Of a stretch of DNA of 64,000 bases, positions 39,357 through 48,017 are shown one piece after another; positions within the stretch are counted from its first letter, which is position 1; each line of letters starts with the position of its first letter. A program made the translations under genes and the position numbers. This DNA comes from Arthrobacter sp. Bz4. GTDB lineage: Bacteria; Actinomycetota; Actinomycetes; Actinomycetales; Micrococcaceae. Under the pieces are notes generated by a model. It worked only from the letters and a program-made list of their open reading frames with translations. It searched no databases and had not been told where the DNA came from. The stretch is taken from NCBI RefSeq assembly GCF_003075455.1, contig NZ_QDAE01000006.1, positions 1 through 64,000 on the forward strand, given 5' to 3'.

Positions 39357-39860
39357 CTAGGCGGTAACCTGCCGCTTCGACGAAATCACTCCGGTGTTGA
39401 AGCCAGCCAGGTTGAGTCCACCGTGGAACCGCGCGTGCTCAATCTTGATGCAGCGGTCCATCACCACGTTCAGGCCCGCCTCCTCGGCGTCGTGCGCAAC
39501 GTCCTCATGCCAGGACCCCAACTGCAGCCATAGTGTTTTCGCGCCAACAGCCTTCGTCTCCTCAAGGACACTGGGCAGATCATCGTGCTTCCGGAACACG
39601 TCGACGATGTCGGGGACCTCCGGTAGGTCGGCCAGGGACGCGTACACGGGCTGCCCCAGAATCTCCTTCGCCACCGGGTTCACGAAGTACAAGCGGTAGG
39701 GCGACGACGACTGCAGGTAGGTGGCCACGAAGTACGACGCGCGGGACGGCTTATCCGACGCCCCAATGATCGCCACCGACTTGGCGTGACGCAGGAGCGA
39801 GAGTCGTTCAGGGGCGGACGGGCCCTCCCAGGTCCGTACCGTTTCCAGATTGGCGCTCAT
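39357..39860 (-). CDS. CoA-binding (YccU-type) protein downstream of metY
   Basis: 167 residues. The Rossmann-like CoA_binding domain begins SVAIIGASDKPSRAS and ends LWLQLGSWHEDV...GLNVVMDRCIKIEH, with the typical conserved Cys. The start is the ATG at 39860 behind GAGGGAG, overlapping the metY stop by four bases, so it is co-translated with metY. It is clearly paralogous to the protein at 47601-48017. Such proteins bind CoA; a role with the acetyl-CoA synthetase of this island is inference. Confidence 0.85.
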   Translation of the reverse strand: MSANLETVRTWEGPSAPERLSLLRHAKSVAIIGASDKPSRASYFVATYLQSSSPYRLYFVNPVAKEILGQPVYASLADLPEVPDIVDVFRKHDDLPSVLEETKAVGAKTLWLQLGSWHEDVAHDAEEAGLNVVMDRCIKIEHARFHGGLNLAGFNTGVISSKRQVTA

Positions 39861-41188
39861 GCGGTGGCTCCCTCGTGCGGAGTAGATGTTGAGCCCTGCG
39901 AGGTTGCAGTGGCAAGGTCCAGTGCCTGGTCGATGTCCCACAGGATATCGTCCAGGTCCTCGAGTCCGATCGAAATCCTGACCAGGTCCTCGGGGATGCC
40001 GGCCGTGACCAGCTGCTCGGCGGACAGCTGCTGGTGCGTGGTCGAGCCGGGGTGGATGACCAGGGTGCGCGCATCGCCCACGTTGGCCAGGTGTGAGGCC
40101 AGCTGCAGCGACTCAATAAACTTCTGCCCTGCCGCCCTGCCCCCTTTCACCCCAAAACTGAAGACCGACCCGGGCCCTTGGGGCAGGTACTTGGCGGCCC
40201 GCTCGAAATGCCGGTGCGAGGGGAGGCCCGCGAAGTTCACGTACTCCACCCGAGGGTCGTTCTCCAGCCACTCGGCGACCGCTTGGGCGTTGGACAGGTG
40301 TTCGTCCATCCGCTGGGCCAGGGTTTCCACGCCCTGCAGCAGCTGGAAGGCTGACATGGGGGAGAGGGACGGCCCGATGTCCCGCAGCTGCTCGGTGCGC
40401 AGCTTGGTCAGGAAGCCGTACTCGCCGAAGTTGGCCCACCACTGGATATTGCCGTAGGACGGGACCGGTTCGGTCATGGTGGGGAACCGGCCGTTACCCC
40501 AGTTGAAGGTTCCGGCCTCGACGACGACGCCGCCCAGGGTGGTCCCGTGCCCGCCGATGAACTTGGTGGCGGAGTGGATCACAATGTCGGCGCCGTGCTC
40601 GATGGGCCGGATCAGGTAGGGGGTGCTCAGGGTGGAGTCGATGATCAGCGGCACACCGGCGTCGTGGGCGATCTTCGCTAGCCCCTGGATGTCGGCGATT
40701 TCACCCGAGGGGTTCGCGATCACCTCCGCGTAGACGGCCTTCGTGTTGTCCTGGATGGCCGCAGCATAGTCAGCGGGATCCGTGCCGGGGACGAAGGTGG
40801 TGTCAATGCCGAACCGGCGCAGGGTCACATCGAGTTGGGTGACCGTGCCGCCGTAGAGCTGCGACGCGGCGACAATATGATCCCCGGCCTGGCAGAGGGC
40901 CGCGAACGTGATGAATTCGGCGCTCATGCCCGACGCCGTCGCGACCGCCCCGATGCCACCCTCCAGGGACGCGATCCGCTCCTCGAACGCGGCGACCGTA
41001 GGGTTGCCGATCCGCGAATAAATGTTGCCGTACTTTTGGAGCGCGAAGAGGTTGGCGGCGTCGTTCGTGTCCTTGAACACGAACGAGGTCGTCTGGTAGA
41101 TGGGTACCGCTCGGGCGCCGTGGGCCGAGTCGGGGGTGCCACCCGCGTGAAGAGCGCGTGTACGGAAACCGAAGCTGCGATCAGCCAT
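39857..41188 (-). CDS. metY: O-acetylhomoserine sulfhydrylase (aminocarboxypropyltransferase)
   Basis: 443 residues, PLP-dependent, with the cofactor lysine at Lys209 in [10 protein letters not shown]. It makes homocysteine and acetate from O-acetylhomoserine and sulfide. The N-terminal [10 protein letters not shown], the YSRIGNPTV block and the long insert typical of MetY separate it from cystathionine enzymes. The start shares one base with the sfnG stop, so both are made from the SAM-riboswitch transcript upstream. No metX is in the window. Confidence 0.94.
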
Positions 41189-42333
41189 CAGACACCTGCC
41201 TTAATCTGGTTGTCAACATTGAAATCTAGGCCCTCTTTACGGGCGAGGTCCGCTTCGAGTTCGCGGACGATGGGGAGGATGTCTTTGCCGAAGGCTTCGA
41301 CCTCCTCCTGGAAGTGGAGGTAGCAGGTCAGCATCAGGTTCACGCCGATTTTCTTGTACTCGATGATCCGCTCGGCGATCTGCTCGGGGGTGCCGATCAG
41401 CTGGGTCTTGAAGCCGTCGTTGTACTGGATCAGGTCCTCGAAGGACGAGTCCGCCCACATGCCCTTGCCATCCTTGGTCGAGGCCCCGGCTTCCTGCACT
41501 GCGCCCCGGAACCCCTCCACCGCCGGTTTGTGGGCCTTGGCCACGATCTCGCGGAGCGTCTCGCGGGCTTCCTTCTCGGTATCGCGGGCAATCACAAAAC
41601 CGTTGAGCCCGTACCGGGGGTCGCGGCCGACGTCGGCCGCTGAGGCCTGCACGCCGGCGATATTCTCCTTGAATCCCTCGAGGTCCTTGCCGTTGGAAAA
41701 GTACCAGTCGGCCACCCGGCCAGCAGTGGCCTGCGCCGCCGTCGAGTTCCCGCCGAAGAAGATTTCCGGGTGTGGACGCCCGGGCACGTCGACGGGCGGC
41801 GGGTTGAGGGTGAAATCGGTAATGTTGTAATACTTGCCGGCCTGGGAGAAGTTCTGCTCGGTCCAGAGGCCGCGGAGGATCCTGATGAACTCTTCGGTGC
41901 GGACGTAGCGCTCGTCGTGCTCCAGCCACGGCAGCCCGAACCCGGTGAACTCACTCTTCAGCCAGCCGGACACAATGTTCACCGCCGCCCGACCACCGGA
42001 GATGTGGTCAGCGGTGATGATGAACTTCGCCAGGACTCCGGGCTGCCACATGCCGGGGTGGACGGCGGCGATCACCTTCAGCTTTTCGGTCGCACCGAGC
42101 AGCGCCAGGGAGAACGACGTGGCCTCATGCTGCTTGTCGGCGCCGTACGACGCCGCATACCGGGTTTGCGAGAGGGCGTACTCGAAGCCGGCGTCCTCCG
42201 CGATGCGGGCCAGCTTCTTGTTGTACTCGAAGTCCCAGCTGGTGCGCTGCTCAATGGTGGAGACCACCAGGCCGCCGCTCACATTGGGCACCCAGTACGC
42301 GAACTTCAGGGGTTGGGAAAGGTCAATAGCCAT
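41188..42333 (-). CDS. sfnG: Dimethylsulfone monooxygenase (LLM-class flavin enzyme)
   Basis: 381 residues of the SsuD/SfnG group of FMNH2-dependent oxygenases. Signature parts are FAYWVPNVSGGLVVS, YALSQTRY, TEKLKVIAAVHPGMWQPG, the ISGGRAAVNIVSGWLKSEF loop and IFFGGNS. It cleaves dimethylsulfone to methanesulfinate. The ribosome site GGAGG overlaps the 3' strand of the SAM riboswitch in front. A flavin reductase is needed but none lies nearby. Confidence 0.88.
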   Translation of the reverse strand: MAIDLSQPLKFAYWVPNVSGGLVVSTIEQRTSWDFEYNKKLARIAEDAGFEYALSQTRYAASYGADKQHEATSFSLALLGATEKLKVIAAVHPGMWQPGVLAKFIITADHISGGRAAVNIVSGWLKSEFTGFGLPWLEHDERYVRTEEFIRILRGLWTEQNFSQAGKYYNITDFTLNPPPVDVPGRPHPEIFFGGNSTAAQATAGRVADWYFSNGKDLEGFKENIAGVQASAADVGRDPRYGLNGFVIARDTEKEARETLREIVAKAHKPAVEGFRGAVQEAGASTKDGKGMWADSSFEDLIQYNDGFKTQLIGTPEQIAERIIEYKKIGVNLMLTCYLHFQEEVEAFGKDILPIVRELEADLARKEGLDFNVDNQIKAGV

Positions 42334-42342
42334 AGTGGTCCT

Positions 42343-42441
42343 CCATCGTGCCTGGCATTAGCACCCTAATGTCACTGCCGTGGGCAGTGGCCAGGGTTGC
42401 TGCGGTGTCAATGAGCCAGATCTCTCAACCGCTCGGGATGG
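42343..42441 (-). promoter_or_regulatory. SAM riboswitch (SAM-I clan) controlling sfnG-metY
   Basis: Read on the minus strand, the S-box core is present: CGAGCGG...GAGAGA..TGGCTC...TGACACCGCAGCAACC and, after P3, GGTGCTAATGCC. P1 pairs CCATC (plus-strand 42437-42441) with GATGG (plus 42343-42347). GATGGAGG also contains the sfnG Shine-Dalgarno, six bases before the ATG, so P1 formation with SAM should block translation. It may be the SAM-I/IV variant, as I see no clear P4. Confidence 0.87.
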
Positions 42442-42530
42442 TCCCCACCAGTGTGACAGTCCTCTCACGGTCGACCAACATTGTTGCTCTCCGTTGCGGG
42501 TTGTCCCTCCGGTGGGGTTTACAGGCGGGG

Positions 42531-44483
42531 TCACGGTGACGCCCTTGCGGCCAGTGCGGCAGCGATGCCGGGCACGCACGCCTCGTTCTGCAGGGAAGTG
42601 GTGTCACCCAGCGTTGTGTTCTCGAACAGTTGCGTCAGGAGTCGGCGCATGATCTTGCCGGACCGGGTCTTCGGGACGTCCGCGACGACGACGACGGCGG
42701 CCGGCTTGGCGATCGGCCCGATCACCGCCGCGACGTGGTCCCGCAAGACCCGGCTCACCTCCTCCGCCGCGTGCGCGCCGGCCCCGTGGGACGCAGCCAG
42801 CACCACGAAGGCGGCAATCGCATGGCCGGTCCGCGGATCGGAGACCGGACAGACGCCGGCCTCGACCACCCACGGGTGAGCAACCAGGGCCGATTCAATC
42901 TCGATGGTCGAGAGCCGGTGGCCTGACACGTTGAGCACATCGTCGACCCGGCCGAGGATCCAGGTGTCGCCGTCGTCGTCGTTCCTGGCCCCATCACCGG
43001 CCAGGAACCAGCCCTGGGCGGCGAACTTTCGCCAGTAGGAATCCAGGTAGCGCTGCGGGTCGCCCCAGACGGTGCGCGCCATCGCCGGTCCGGTGCGGTC
43101 CACGACGATCAGGCCCTGCTCACCGGTGGGTACCGGGTTTCCGGCGTCGTCGACAATCCGGGTGCTCACGCCGGGGAGGGCGCGGGAGGCAGAACCGGGC
43201 TTGAACGAGGGGTCAGTGGGGCGGGGAGAGAGGATGGTGGCGCCGGTTTCTGACTGCCACCAGGTGTCGACGACCGGTGCGGTGCCAGCCCCGAGGTGCT
43301 CCCTGAACCAGCGCCAGGCCTCGGGGTTGGTGGCCTCACCGACGGTGCCGAGGAGACGGATCGAGGACAGGTCGTAGCTGGCAGGCACGCCGTCCGGGAA
43401 CCAGCCCATCAGCGACCGGATCAGGGTGGGGGCCGTGTAATAGCTGGTCACCTTGTAACGCTGGATGATCTCGAAGTGCCGCCCCGGATGTGGGGTGTTG
43501 GGAGTGCCCTCGAAGATCACCTGGGTGGCGCCGTTGGAGAGCGGACCGTAGATCTCGTAGGTATGGGCGGTCACCCAGGCAAGGTCGGCGGTGCACCAGT
43601 GGACGTCCTGGTCCCGCTGCGACGGATCGGGGTTGCTGAACAGGTAGTCGAAACTCCACGACGCCTGGGTCAGGTACCCACCGGAGGTGTGCACCAGGCC
43701 TTTGGGCTTACCCGTGGTGCCGGAGGTGTACATGATGAACAGGGGAGTCTCGGCGTCGAACGCCTCGGCAGCGTGATGCGGGGCCGCGGCGCCGACTGCG
43801 TCATGCCACCAGACGTCCCGGCCCTCGGTCCACTCGATGTCGCTGCCGGTCCGGCGGATCACCAGAACATGTTCGATGCTGTTGGAACCGGACACGGCCT
43901 GATCGGCGTTGGTCTTGACCGGCACCGCTGCGCCGCGCCGGTACTGCCCGTCAGTTGTGACCAACAGTTTGGCGCCGGTGTCCTCAACCCGGAAGCGTAA
44001 GGCTTCAGCAGAGAATCCGCCGAACACCAGTGAGTGCACCGCCCCGATTCGCGCGCACGCCAGGGTGACCACAATCGTTTCCACGAGCACGGGTAGGTAG
44101 ATCACCACGCGGTCGCCCTTGCCGATCCCGAGGTTCAGCAAGGCGTTGGCTGCGCGTGACACCTCCTCCTGCAGGTCCGAGTAGGTGACCGTTCGCTGGT
44201 CCCCGGGCTCACCCTCGAAATGCAGTGCGACCTTGCTGCCCAGCCCGGCATCCACGTGCCGATCCACGCAGTTGTGGGCCACGTTGAGGCGGCCCCCCGC
44301 GAACCACTCGATCGCCGGGACGGTGAGCTGCCCGTCGGCGCCACCCGATACCGGCCGGGCTGGCTGAAAGCTGTGCGCCGTGGTCCATTCGGCAGCCCAG
44401 TCCAGCCGGCGCGCCTGCTGTTCCCAGAACGCCAGGCGGTCCGTCTCGGTCAGGGGGTCGGCCTCCTGAAGGCTCACGCCCAT
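42531..44483 (-). CDS. Acetyl-CoA synthetase-like AMP-forming ligase in the sulfur operon
   Basis: 650 residues of the ACS family. ATP-binding loop YTSGTTGKPKG (about 252-262), WTADLAWVTAHTYEIYGPL and DTWWQSETG for the acyl pocket, GRVDDVLNVSGHR, and the acetylation lysine in KTRSGKIMRR (near 610). It activates acetate or a short acid to the CoA ester. The ATG at 44483 is chosen; GTG 44498 is an alternative. It overlaps the permease gene upstream by 10 bases and so belongs to the SAM-controlled transporter operon. Confidence 0.85.
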   Translation of the reverse strand: MGVSLQEADPLTETDRLAFWEQQARRLDWAAEWTTAHSFQPARPVSGGADGQLTVPAIEWFAGGRLNVAHNCVDRHVDAGLGSKVALHFEGEPGDQRTVTYSDLQEEVSRAANALLNLGIGKGDRVVIYLPVLVETIVVTLACARIGAVHSLVFGGFSAEALRFRVEDTGAKLLVTTDGQYRRGAAVPVKTNADQAVSGSNSIEHVLVIRRTGSDIEWTEGRDVWWHDAVGAAAPHHAAEAFDAETPLFIMYTSGTTGKPKGLVHTSGGYLTQASWSFDYLFSNPDPSQRDQDVHWCTADLAWVTAHTYEIYGPLSNGATQVIFEGTPNTPHPGRHFEIIQRYKVTSYYTAPTLIRSLMGWFPDGVPASYDLSSIRLLGTVGEATNPEAWRWFREHLGAGTAPVVDTWWQSETGATILSPRPTDPSFKPGSASRALPGVSTRIVDDAGNPVPTGEQGLIVVDRTGPAMARTVWGDPQRYLDSYWRKFAAQGWFLAGDGARNDDDGDTWILGRVDDVLNVSGHRLSTIEIESALVAHPWVVEAGVCPVSDPRTGHAIAAFVVLAASHGAGAHAAEEVSRVLRDHVAAVIGPIAKPAAVVVVADVPKTRSGKIMRRLLTQLFENTTLGDTTSLQNEACVPGIAAALAARASP

Positions 44484-45388
44484 CGCCGGACCGCCCACTT
44501 CTCGGCGATCCCCAGGAGGGCATCGGTGGTTTTGCCGATGATCGCCAACAGGATGATCGCCAGGAAGATCCTGTCCACCCGTCCGTTGTTTTGTGAATCA
44601 CTCAACAGATATCCGAGCCCCAGCGAGGAGGCAATCAGTTCAGCCGCGACCAGGAACAGCCACGCCTGGGCGAGGCCCAACCGGAGACCGGAGAACACTG
44701 ATGGAATCACGGCCGGGAGTTGCACCGTGGTCAGCAGTTTGAAGCCCTTCAACCCGAACGCCCGGCCGGCCTCCACCAGGTTCCGGTCCACGTGCCGTAG
44801 CGCGAGGTACACGGTGGTGAAGACGGGGAAGAAGGCGCCAATGAGGATCAGCGTGATCTTTGAATCCTCGCCGATCTTCATCCACAGGATGAGCAGCGGC
44901 ACCCAGGCCAGGGACGGGACAGCACGCAAGGCGCCGATGGTGGGAGCGAGCAGCGCGTCCGCGATCCGGGACAGCCCGACGAGTGAGCCGATCGCGAGGC
45001 CCAGGGCGGCGCCGAAGGTGAAGCCCAGCAGTACCCGTTGGGTGGAGATGCCGATGTGGGTCCACAGCTCGCCGCGCTGGATCAGTTCGACTGCCGCATT
45101 GAGCACCGCCGCGGGCGGCGGCACCTGGACGGCGCTGAACAGGCCGGTGACGGAGTTCAGCTGCCAGACGGTGATGATCAGCCCGGGCAGGATCAGCCCG
45201 AGGAGCAGACGCACCCAGCCACGCCGCAGCGGGCCGGTCTGGGACCATCCATGTGCCGGTCCGCCCCGTTCGGGCGGCGGCTGGGTGGCGTCTGCCGTTG
45301 CCACGGTGGAGCCGGAGGCTTCCAGGGAAGTCTGGCTCACGCCCGTGACGCTGTTCCCGGTCACGTACGGATTCCCGATGTGGGTCAT
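44474..45388 (-). CDS. Sulfonate/taurine-type ABC transporter permease (SsuC-like)
   Basis: 304 residues. After a Ser/Thr/Pro-rich 65-residue cytoplasmic start come six transmembrane helices. The EAA loop is VEAGRAFGLKGFKLLTTVQLPAVIP, with the VPSLAWVPLLILWMKIGEDSK segment typical of SsuC/TauC permeases. The start overlaps the binding-protein stop by four bases. With the ATPase and lipoprotein genes it forms one importer, probably for aliphatic sulfonates or related organosulfur compounds. Confidence 0.88.
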   Translation of the reverse strand: MTHIGNPYVTGNSVTGVSQTSLEASGSTVATADATQPPPERGGPAHGWSQTGPLRRGWVRLLLGLILPGLIITVWQLNSVTGLFSAVQVPPPAAVLNAAVELIQRGELWTHIGISTQRVLLGFTFGAALGLAIGSLVGLSRIADALLAPTIGALRAVPSLAWVPLLILWMKIGEDSKITLILIGAFFPVFTTVYLALRHVDRNLVEAGRAFGLKGFKLLTTVQLPAVIPSVFSGLRLGLAQAWLFLVAAELIASSLGLGYLLSDSQNNGRVDRIFLAIILLAIIGKTTDALLGIAEKWAVRRWA

Positions 45389-46428
45389 GAGGAGGCCTCA
45401 ATCGCCGTGGGATCCGCGTTGCGTACCAGGGAGTCTTCAAAGAGGGTGTCGAGCGCTTCGTCAACCTGTTCCTGGCTGGAGACGTCACCGGATTCGACGA
45501 ACACCGGACCGATCTTCTCCAGCACAGCCCGCTGCGCGTCACCCGGGATGGGGTCAACGTCCAGGTTGGTGCGGTCGATGATGACCGCGTTGGCGATTTC
45601 GACGTCGATCCCTGCCACCTCGGCGAGGATCTTGGCCGTCTCTTCGGGGTTCTCGATGGCCCATTCGCGGGCCTTCTCGTAGGCGTTTACGACGGTCTGG
45701 GCCAGCTCGGGACTCTCCGCCAGGAAGTCTTCGGTGGCGTTGAGGAAGCCGTAGGTGTTGAAGTCGATGTCCCTGAAGAACAGGGTGGCCCCATCCTGTT
45801 CGGCCGAGGCCATGATCGGGTCGAGGCCCGACCAGGCGTCCACCGATCCGTTGGCGAGGGCGGCCCGGCCGTCGGCGTGCTGCAGGTTCTGCACCGTGAC
45901 CTCGGAGGGATCGACGCCGCCGGCCTCGAGCGCCTGCAGAAGGAAGAAGTAGGGGTCGGTGCCCTTCGTGGCGGCGATCGATTTGCCCCGCAGGTCCTCG
46001 ATCTCCTGGATGTCCGAGTCAGCGTTCGTGACCAGCGCCGACCATTCCGGCTGGGAGTAGATGTCGATCGTCTTGATCGGGGAGCCGTTGGATCGGGCGA
46101 GCAAGGCAGCGGAACCGGCGGTGGAACCCACGTCGATGGCTCCGGCGCGCAACGCCTCGTTCGCCTTGTTGGACCCGGCGGACTGGATCCAGTTGACGGT
46201 GACGTTTTCATCCGCCAACTCGTCCTCCAGCCACCCCTGTTCCTTGATCACCAGGGACAGCGGGTTGTAGGTGGCGAAGTCAATGTTCAGTTCGCCGCCC
46301 GCGGGGGCGGCCGCGCCGTCGGCGTCCTCACCGGCCATGCATCCCGTCAAGGCGAGGGAGGCGACGGCGGCCAGTGACGCGGCGCCCAGAAAGGTGCGGC
46401 GGGGGTGGGGTGCTGGTTGGCGGTTCAT
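45385..46428 (-). CDS. Sulfonate-type ABC transporter substrate-binding lipoprotein (SsuA-like)
   Basis: 347 residues. The signal carries a twin-arginine (HPRRTFLGA) and a lipobox LTGC with Cys30, so it is a Tat-exported lipoprotein. The mature part is the NMT1/SsuA fold: INFATYNPLSLVI-like start, AGAIDVGSTAGSAAL, GTDPYFFLLQAL and VDAWSGLDPIMA. The ATG at 46428 follows AAGGA. The gap of 137 bases to the ATPase gene upstream holds no gene. Confidence 0.88.
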   Translation of the reverse strand: MNRQPAPHPRRTFLGAASLAAVASLALTGCMAGEDADGAAAPAGGELNIDFATYNPLSLVIKEQGWLEDELADENVTVNWIQSAGSNKANEALRAGAIDVGSTAGSAALLARSNGSPIKTIDIYSQPEWSALVTNADSDIQEIEDLRGKSIAATKGTDPYFFLLQALEAGGVDPSEVTVQNLQHADGRAALANGSVDAWSGLDPIMASAEQDGATLFFRDIDFNTYGFLNATEDFLAESPELAQTVVNAYEKAREWAIENPEETAKILAEVAGIDVEIANAVIIDRTNLDVDPIPGDAQRAVLEKIGPVFVESGDVSSQEQVDEALDTLFEDSLVRNADPTAIEASS

Positions 46429-46565
46429 GAGTGTCCTTCGGTGAGACGGGTCGTCTGAGACGAGTTGGGTGAGACGAACAAAAGGGTGGGTACGGTGTGA
46501 CACAGCGCGCAGGCCGTGCAGGGGTGGGTGAAAAGAGAAACCCGGAGGGCAGGGGAAGGTGCGGC

Positions 46566-47375
46566 CTAGTGGCCGGTGACTCCCAGGGAGGCGAGCAAGG
46601 AGCTGCGCATTCGGCCGAGGTCGGCCGCGTTGCGGTCGCGGGGGCGGTCGCCGGGGACGGTGAGAACCTCGGTGATGGTGGCGCCCGGCAGGTTGCCGTC
46701 GGTGCCCAGGACGATGATGCGGTCTGCCAGTTGCAGCGCCTCGTCGACGTCGTGAGTGACCAGTAGCACGGTGGTGGGTTGGGCTCGGTGGATGTCGAGC
46801 AGGAGATCCTGCATCTTGATCCGGGTGAGAGCATCAAGGGCGCCGAACGGCTCGTCGAGGAGGAGTACGCCGGGGTTGCGGGCCAGGGCACGTGCCAATG
46901 AGGCTCGCTGTGCCATTCCGCCGGAGACTTCCCGCGGACGGTGCTTGGCGAACGAAGCAAGCTCGACCAGTTGCAGCAGCTCGGCTACTTTGGCTTTACC
47001 CACGCTGGCACTCGACGCCTTGGGCAGACCAATGGCGACGTTGGCCTGCAGGGTGTGCCAGGGCAGCAGCCGGGGTTCCTGAAAGGCGACGGCGCATCGT
47101 TCGTCGATGCCGTGTACCTCGGTGCCGTCAATCAGGACGGACCCGGCGTTGAGGGAGTCCAACCCGGCGGCAGCCCGCAACAGGGTGGATTTGCCGCAGC
47201 CGCTCGGGCCGAGGATGGCGAGGACCTCGCCGGCGTGCACTTCGAAGTTGATGTCCCGCAGGACGGTCCGCCGATCGGAGGCGGCACCGAAGCTTCGGCC
47301 GAGGCCGGCGAAGGTGACGTTGAGTGCCTGTTTGGTGGGCGCAGTGGTTGACTGTGGTGATGCCAGAACGGTCAT
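46566..47375 (-). CDS. Sulfonate-type ABC transporter ATPase (SsuB-like)
   Basis: 269 residues. Walker A GPSGCGKST (56-64), Q-loop FQEPRLLPW, signature VSGGMAQRASLARAL, Walker B VLLLDEPFGALD, D-loop and H-loop LLVTHDVDEAL are all present. FQEPRLLPW is the SsuB/TauB form. First gene of the four-gene SAM-controlled operon; its GGAG ribosome site overlaps the P1 stem of the riboswitch in front. Confidence 0.92.
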   Translation of the reverse strand: MTVLASPQSTTAPTKQALNVTFAGLGRSFGAASDRRTVLRDINFEVHAGEVLAILGPSGCGKSTLLRAAAGLDSLNAGSVLIDGTEVHGIDERCAVAFQEPRLLPWHTLQANVAIGLPKASSASVGKAKVAELLQLVELASFAKHRPREVSGGMAQRASLARALARNPGVLLLDEPFGALDALTRIKMQDLLLDIHRAQPTTVLLVTHDVDEALQLADRIIVLGTDGNLPGATITEVLTVPGDRPRDRNAADLGRMRSSLLASLGVTGH

Positions 47376-47385
47376 AGGATTAACT

Positions 47386-47514
47386 CCATCGGTCCTGGCG
47401 GTAGCACCCTACTGTCACCGGTTGGCCGCTGCACTTACGTGCTGCAGATGGTCAGCCGGATGGCCAGGGTTGCTGCGGCTTCATCGATCCAGGTCTCTCA
47501 GCCGCTCGGGATGG
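47386..47514 (-). promoter_or_regulatory. SAM riboswitch (SAM-I clan) controlling the sulfonate transporter operon
   Basis: Related to the element at 42343-42441: it shares GACCATCCCGAGCGG and CCGCAGCAACCCTGGCCA exactly and has GGTGCTA at the end of P3. P1 is again CCATC (plus-strand 47510-47514 as GATGG) with GATGG (plus 47386-47390). That strand runs into the ATPase Shine-Dalgarno GGAG. The P3 arm is about 30 bases longer and contains an extra CTGCAGCACGTAAGTGCAG hairpin. Confidence 0.86.
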
Positions 47515-47600
47515 TCAAGCACTACTAAACTCCTGTGCACGGGTTCTCCGCAAGTGTTGGCGTAACAATCCGACCGATTACAGCGAAAGGGCACACCACC

Positions 47601-48017
47601 ATGGCACACAGCAACGATCCTGAAGTGATCCGCACGCTCCTCACAACTCCCGCCCGCTGGGCGGTGGTCGGACTCTCCAACAACCCCCGGCGCGCGGCGC
47701 TCGGAGTCTCACGGTTCCTGATCGACCACCTGGGGATGGAGGTGATCCCCGTCAGTCTCAAGGGCGACGACGTCCATGGGCGCACCGGCTATCGGCGACT
47801 GGCGGATATCCCCGGGACCATCGACGTCGTCGACTGCTTTGTGAACTCCTCAAAGGTGGGAGCGGTGGTGGATCAGGCCATCGAGGTGGGCGCGAAAGCG
47901 GTCTGGCTCCAGCTAGGGGTCATCGACGAGGCGGCCGCTGACCGCGCGCGGGCGGCGGGGCTCGACGTCGTCATGAACACCTGCCCGGCCATCGAAGCGC
48001 CACGCCTCGCCCGCTGA
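47601..48017 (+). CDS. CoA-binding (YccU-type) protein
   Basis: 138 residues: WAVVGLSNNPRRAALGVSRFLIDHLGMEVIPV at the N terminus, DVVDCFVNSSK in the middle and KAVWLQLGVIDEAAADRARAAGLDVVMNTCPAIE at the end. It is a compact paralogue of the metY-linked gene at 39357-39860. It is read away from the sulfur operon, starting about 87 bases from the riboswitch, so the two promoters are back to back. The ATG at 47601 lies behind AAAGGG. Confidence 0.85.
   Translation: MAHSNDPEVIRTLLTTPARWAVVGLSNNPRRAALGVSRFLIDHLGMEVIPVSLKGDDVHGRTGYRRLADIPGTIDVVDCFVNSSKVGAVVDQAIEVGAKAVWLQLGVIDEAAADRARAAGLDVVMNTCPAIEAPRLAR

Follow-up and report, generated by a model that had tools for sequence, protein, structure and literature searches.

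SAM-I-type aptamers without a P4 helix precede two organosulfur operons in Arthrobacter sp. Bz4 and recur among its relatives

The DNA analyzed here, hereafter the window, spans 64,000 nucleotides of Arthrobacter sp. Bz4 (NCBI RefSeq assembly GCF_003075455.1, contig NZ_QDAE01000006.1, positions 1 to 64,000 of the forward strand) and carries two minus-strand elements, A and B, of the S-adenosylmethionine (SAM) riboswitch clan. Element A leads the genes for SfnG, MetY, and a CoA_binding_2 protein, and element B leads those for SsuB, SsuA, SsuC, and an acetyl-CoA synthetase (ACS). An initial annotation had placed two SAM-clan elements at 42343-42441 and 47386-47514, and these coordinates proved to be the exact outer ends of helix P1 in each. 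It also had the gene content of both operons right but listed the operons in reverse order relative to the coordinates: B precedes ssuBAC-acs and A precedes sfnG-metY. The features of the two elements, with helix, pseudoknot, and Shine-Dalgarno strands as read from the sequence, are as follows.

42343 to 42441, minus strand: element A, a P4-less SAM-I-type aptamer 5' of sfnG, from P1 to P1 (RF00162, 50.3 bits)
42437 to 42441, minus strand: P1 5' strand CCATC of element A, with its pairs counted in alignments
42343 to 42347, minus strand: P1 3' strand GATGG of element A
42416 to 42419, minus strand: pseudoknot 5' strand CTGG of element A, in the P2b loop, with covariation in relatives
42352 to 42355, minus strand: pseudoknot 3' strand CCAG of element A, joined to P1 by a 4-nucleotide linker (42348-42351), the P4 positions being unfilled in cmscan
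42340 to 42344, minus strand: Shine-Dalgarno sequence GGAGG of sfnG, with 2 nucleotides common to P1 (ATG at 42333)
47386 to 47514, minus strand: element B, a P4-less SAM-I-type aptamer with a long P3 extension, 5' of ssuB, from P1 to P1 (RF00162, 40.6 bits)
47510 to 47514, minus strand: P1 5' strand CCATC of element B
47386 to 47390, minus strand: P1 3' strand GATGG of element B
47489 to 47492, minus strand: pseudoknot 5' strand CTGG of element B
47395 to 47398, minus strand: pseudoknot 3' strand CCAG of element B, joined to P1 by a 4-nucleotide linker (47391-47394)
47384 to 47387, minus strand: Shine-Dalgarno sequence GGAG of ssuB, with 2 nucleotides common to P1 (ATG at 47375)

The initial annotation had suggested a search with the Rfam covariance models. 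Against RF00162, the Rfam SAM model, element A matches at 42340-42444 above the gathering score of 44.4; element B matches at 47383-47517 with an E value of 2.1e-6, under that score. The program cmscan, which names a single best family for each clan, assigns SAM to both. The SAM-I/IV model RF01725 detects nothing anywhere in the genome at E≤10 with all 95 first-look candidates scored, and P2 of both elements is split by a kink-turn; a SAM-I/IV identity is thus ruled out. The SAM-IV model RF00634 has no match in the window at E≤10 with 150 of 934 first-look candidates scored, which, together with the cmscan assignment, rules out a SAM-IV identity. The proposed membership of the SAM clan therefore stands. 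The aptamer is a variant without P4, a feature that the annotation did not mention, and not a plain SAM-I.

What is new here is that the P4 helix is missing while the kink-turn P2, the pseudoknot, and the pocket residues of SAM-I are retained. In the Rfam alignments of A and B the P4 positions are empty. The genome has two further RF00162 matches that exceed the cutoff, one on contig C1 and one on contig C31, and their alignments show the same gap. A regular-expression search over 83 sources yielded 99 elements, every one of which has a linker of 3 to 5 nucleotides between pseudoknot and P1. From 39 of these we built a covariance model, R1. At E≤0.01 it gave 109 matches spread over 87 sources (training rows counted in), and at E≤1e-5 another 40 regions yielded 82. 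These regions were chosen at listed hits: 26 represent the family genera in which there was a hit, one apiece, and 14 come from other families. Element A, itself a training row, scores 97.6 bits with R1, and element B, which lies outside the training rows, scores 93.7 bits. An alignment termed A3 comprises 118 R1 matches at E≤1e-5 from 77 loci. As some places are duplicated, 111 rows are distinct, and one of them runs off its stretch and is incomplete. Across the remaining 110 distinct complete rows, the linker measures 4 nucleotides in 104, 5 in four, and 3 in two, so that there is no space for a hairpin and hence no P4. We found no description of a P4-less SAM-I form in open-access full texts, a search that left most subscription papers, the original SAM-IV paper included, outside its reach.

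The fold that remains is well preserved in the relatives. In A3, 99.3% of the cells are paired, double changes occur in 13 of 23 pairs, and 59 cells are altered on both sides; the alignment was made by the model, which favors its own structure, and related rows inflate covariation scores. None of 500 shuffles reaches any of the five measures, and slid controls are 24.7 to 54.6% paired. Compensated pairs are found in P1 (3 of 5), P2a (5 of 5), P2b (2 of 3), the pseudoknot (2 of 4), and P3 (1 of 6), and the pseudoknot, formed by the P2b loop with J3/4, is paired in 100% of its cells. The kink-turn strands of P2 measure 3 and 6 nucleotides in 117 of 117 complete rows, and the equivalents of G19, A20, G35, and A36, which form its tandem G.A pairs, are kept in 114, 118, 118, and 118 of 118 rows. 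An earlier set, A1, made up of 39 rows selected by regex, varied too little to be informative: its double changes in three pairs were matched by 43 of 500 shuffles and its further pair types by 286 of 500. The compensatory changes in A3 support the proposed fold. They also speak against the view that these elements are degraded, functionless relics of SAM-I, an explanation to which the position of element B under the Rfam gathering score lends some color. We judge it the least probable of the alternatives considered here, given these changes, the conserved placement, and the 391 R1 matches at E≤1e-6 in 97 of 120 Micrococcaceae genomes (26 of 32 genera).

To place the ligand pocket, we mapped SAM-I residues onto A3 with what we take to be the Thermoanaerobacter tengcongensis numbering. 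By this mapping, 21 of the 23 residues described as highly conserved in SAM-I in excerpts of PMC3764141 persist in no fewer than 114 of the 117 to 118 lettered rows. The two exceptions are U4, which is replaced (C in 110 of 118 rows), and A61, which is kept in 98 of 117. This conservation argues for SAM as the predicted ligand. A pocket shifted to another ligand, such as S-adenosylhomocysteine, might be suspected from the loss of P4 and the change in J1/2, which reads CC or CA in most A3 rows, as both depart from canonical SAM-I. It is improbable, however, because A6, U7, G11, C44, A45, U57, G58, A87, and U88, all described as conserved in SAM-I, are near invariant and the targets are methionine and sulfur acquisition genes.

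The features by which the known classes are told apart locate this form closest to SAM-I. As summarized in excerpts of PMC7270179, SAM-I has a P4 hairpin, a kink-turn in P2, a specific U, and no extra pseudoknot. Like SAM-I, elements A and B have P1, a kink-turn P2, the P2b-loop pseudoknot, P3, and the pocket residues; unlike it, they lack P4, their P2b loop is one nucleotide longer than the Rfam consensus, and P1 of this form reads mostly CCAUC/GAUGG. As in SAM-I, an additional pseudoknot is absent from both as judged by the coding region, which begins at most 10 nucleotides after P1, and by RF00634, which did not list them, no dedicated pseudoknot search having been made. SAM-IV, according to parts of PMC6890682, also lacks P4 and has P5 and a second pseudoknot, PK-2. 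The window elements share with it the core, the absence of P4, and presence in the same genome. They differ from it in showing no sign of P5 or a second pseudoknot, in keeping a 6-nucleotide kink-turn side where SAM-IV has 4, and in lying at other loci before mostly other genes. With SAM-I/IV they have in common the same SAM core (PMC6890682, in part); they differ from it in their split P2, in the P2b-loop pseudoknot, and in the missing genome match, and the relevant parts of PMC2864571 describe the SAM-I/IV variants as lacking the P2 internal loop. Since SAM-I-like working is expected and one defining feature, P4, is absent, we file the elements as a SAM-I variant. The P4-less form is a structural variant of SAM-I that would control organosulfur scavenging, probably by hiding the ribosome-binding site.

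The genes behind the two elements, all on the minus strand, are as follows.

41188 to 42333, minus strand: sfnG, dimethylsulfone monooxygenase (TIGR04021, 625.6 bits, cutoff 382.95)
39857 to 41188, minus strand: metY, O-acetylhomoserine sulfhydrylase (TIGR01326, 603.9 bits, cutoff 495.1)
39357 to 39941, minus strand: CoA-binding domain protein, CoA_binding_2 (PF13380, 138.7 bits)
46566 to 47375, minus strand: SsuB-like ATPase (the top NCBIfam models describe ATPases for nitrate, sulfonate, and taurine, all 25 listed models staying under their cutoffs)
45385 to 46503, minus strand: SsuA-family substrate-binding protein (TIGR01728, 213.1 bits, cutoff 163.5)
44474 to 45388, minus strand: SsuC-like permease (NF008470, 185.2 bits, under the cutoff of 347; PF00528)
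42531 to 44498, minus strand: acetyl-CoA synthetase paralogue (TIGR02188, 778.4 bits, cutoff 724.95)

The listed start of the CoA-binding gene overlaps metY, so its true start is probably internal. A second CoA_binding_2 gene lies on the plus strand at 47535-48017 of the window, divergent from ssuB and immediately upstream of element B.

Gene order in relatives ties the two operons together. We compared 80 sfnG loci from a close-relative search, a sample biased to this lineage, with only order and strand determined, by tblastn. An element lies within 320 nucleotides upstream of sfnG in 26 of the 80. Between the nearest upstream element and sfnG, 36 loci have acs alone (element-acs-sfnG, 22 loci) or the full importer set (element-ssuB-ssuA-ssuC-acs-sfnG, 14 loci). 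The metY and CoA-binding genes follow sfnG in 75 of 80 loci, and the window is the case with an element at both positions, before ssuB and before sfnG. One common regulon for the two window operons, as the initial annotation proposed, is supported by the gene order in these 36 loci. The two window elements do not define the whole regulon, because the genome has four P4-less elements and four SAM-IV elements (RF00634 over cutoff, with 150 of 934 candidates scored).

The four P4-less elements lead four units, two in the window and one each on contigs C1 and C31. The C1 element (locus L011, 4451-12685), at 60.6 bits, precedes genes for a TIGR04028-type binding protein and Opp/Nik-type permeases and ATPase, in a unit that also has an SfnB-like gene reading as two open reading frames (ORFs) and an NtaA/DmoA-family monooxygenase. 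The C31 element (locus L012, 14043-16290) precedes an OsmC-like gene together with a sodium-solute symporter, a surprising target for control by SAM, and a c-di-AMP riboswitch lies at 13677-13853 of L012. Of the SAM-IV elements, one stands before a metX-like ORF, one before a MetQ-MetN-MetI set, one before a SufS-like gene (below its model cutoff), and one before an unknown gene followed by an SfnB-like gene. The division of target genes between the two classes is thus not clean. The first of these elements stands directly 5' of the metX-like ORF, which is uninterrupted and was named by eye from its translation (L016, 9791 downwards, minus strand). Synthesis and use of acetylhomoserine may therefore answer to two SAM riboswitch classes.

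A broader view comes from the 40 further regions, in which 81 elements of 82 hits were examined (one truncated hit was excluded) and 67 have a downstream gene run by our own simple gene caller. The downstream genes encode NtaA/DmoA-type oxygenases (15 elements), ACS (14 elements, 13 genes), SsuA (14), MetY (11), SfnB-like proteins (10), SfnG (4), MetF (3), and MetE (3), with gene-cluster names taken from the window genes and family searches.

How these elements would act is suggested by where P1 ends. The initial annotation saw GATGG of P1 merging with the Shine-Dalgarno sequence, and the 2-nucleotide overlap in both A and B confirms this; placement of the ribosome-binding site within P1 is already known for SAM-I (PMC2258182, in part). 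We consider it likely that A and B are SAM-sensing aptamers of the SAM-I lineage that have lost P4 and whose P1 locks to block translation of ssuB and sfnG. When SAM is plentiful, its binding between P1 and P3 would lock the 5-base-pair P1, and ribosomes would be blocked at ssuB and sfnG by the 3' strand that shares two bases with the Shine-Dalgarno sequence. When SAM is low, P1 would open, and the SsuABC-type importer, the ACS paralogue, SfnG, MetY, and the CoA-binding protein would be made. Organosulfur compounds so imported or oxidized would then supply sulfur for homocysteine, methionine, and SAM.

The main competitor keeps the aptamer and makes control mainly transcriptional: termination, whether intrinsic or Rho-dependent, would occur within the leader or early in the gene, and the overlap of P1 and Shine-Dalgarno sequence would be incidental. 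Long leaders of ≈70 to 250 nucleotides do follow GATGGAG before metN-like, SBP5, oxygenase, and some sfnG genes (L011, L034, L035, L064, L069, L131, L136, and others), and where no long gene starts near P1 a different platform is probable. In A and B, however, the start codon comes 9 to 10 nucleotides after P1, a distance too short to hold a terminator hairpin ahead of the gene, and we regard mainly transcriptional control as unlikely there. Among 221 unique P4-less elements, the regex set over the collected loci, an ORF of at least 100 amino acids starts 4 to 19 nucleotides past GATG in 149, with a Shine-Dalgarno-like string between in 145 of these. No promoter is claimed, as a TANNNT peak 14 nucleotides before P1, sought as a conserved -10 element, occurs in only 17 of the 221.

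Several results weigh against the translational reading or its generality, as do the alignment biases noted above. The remaining 72 of the 221 elements, that of C1 included, have no such near gene start: their leaders are longer, their ORFs are short, or their starts narrowly miss the range. Masking of the Shine-Dalgarno sequence is thus not universal, and at least one other platform probably exists. In thermodynamic folds computed free of ligand and pseudoknot, P1 is paired with a probability of 0.002 in A and of 0.91 to 0.95 in B, where the predicted interior is unlike the aptamer; these folds do not predict the switching equilibrium. Finally, 18 of the 80 sfnG loci have no upstream element, five of them starting less than 5.6 kb upstream.

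Ten loci outside the family, picked by eye among the 72 elements, have an ORF of 26 to 37 codons that starts 8 to 13 nucleotides past GATG (L166, L179, L182, L183, L185, L189, L199, L246, L249, and L250, of which L182 and L199 are one genome). A VDL(C/L)R motif occurs in six of the ten peptides, and six of the ten are matched at E≤0.005 by NF042934, the NCBIfam model named "putative leader peptide," with two of them over cutoff. It is possible that these loci combine SAM sensing and a leader peptide in a tandem switch. A sulfite/nitrite reductase-like gene lies downstream at L166 and L241.

The window ACS exceeds the TIGR02188 cutoff but is a paralogue. The other ACS locus in this genome scores 947.5 bits with TIGR02188 and is 53% identical to the window ACS; the 13 ACS genes behind other elements are 63 to 78% identical to it. 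All 14 riboswitch-linked ACS read WWQSE where the other ACS of this genome reads WWQTE, and 12 of the 14 read WVTAHTY where it reads WVTGHSY. The tryptophan that limits the acyl pocket is kept. Because MetY releases acetate and MetX consumes acetyl-CoA, the paralogue probably recycles MetY-released acetate into acetyl-CoA.

In the order of this genome, R1 at E≤1e-6 matches 160 of 396 genomes (62 of 109 genera). In the class, at E≤1e-12, it matches 20 of 394 genomes, 8 in the order, own genome included, and 12 in other orders, and RF00162 exceeds its cutoff in 262 of the 394. From the 30 best-scoring class RF00162 loci, nine from other orders were inspected with cmscan, and P4 is present in all nine (80.9 to 92.7 bits); R1 scores the 30 loci at 34.8 to 51.6 bits. 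No RF00162 score within the family exceeds 67.4; matches at E≤1 occur in 100 of the 120 genomes (401 in total), 90 of which have one over cutoff, and RF00162 and R1 places agree in the few listed ones compared. Three genomes have RF00162 matches without an R1 match (G464, E 0.38; G466, E 0.50; G501, E 3e-5) and were left out of the P4 inspection. SAM-IV (RF00634) is present in 120 of 120 family genomes and so in all 97 with the P4-less form. The closest named relative is Arthrobacter sp. 260, with a 95% identical SfnG, which places the window in Arthrobacter or a near genus and hence in the Micrococcaceae, the family to which the searched genomes are taken to belong. A plasmid search with element A as query gave no match. 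Two weak matches were excluded from all counts, one to RF00162 inside a 254-amino acid ORF (L005, 21.3 bits) and one to SAM-IV (L010, 18.2 bits). The genome also has a fluoride riboswitch over its gathering score (L014, 12822-12893).

We found no SAM riboswitch linked to SfnG, and no riboswitch associated with dimethyl sulfone and sulfonate, in open-access full texts. With the present elements, the genes under SAM riboswitch control would come to include those for scavenging sulfones and sulfonates as well as an ACS paralogue, whose presence suggests an acetate-recycling step beside MetY. P4 normally counts as one of the helices that define SAM-I. An abundant, natural, covarying form without it shows how far the SAM-I core can be pared down and offers a compact target for structure work. 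Element B is an example of a member that escapes the Rfam gathering cutoff. The form also bears on the relationship between SAM-I and SAM-IV. With the case for and against in even balance, we suggest that it may constitute a distinct compact subclass, common in this order with scattered occurrences elsewhere, that operates in the same cells as SAM-IV and controls organosulfur genes and in places methionine genes, that may be the architectural step between SAM-I (with P4) and SAM-IV (no P4 but P5 and PK-2 added), and whose P1 may in other lineages mask the start of a short leader peptide of a cysteine-linked type as a two-input switch.

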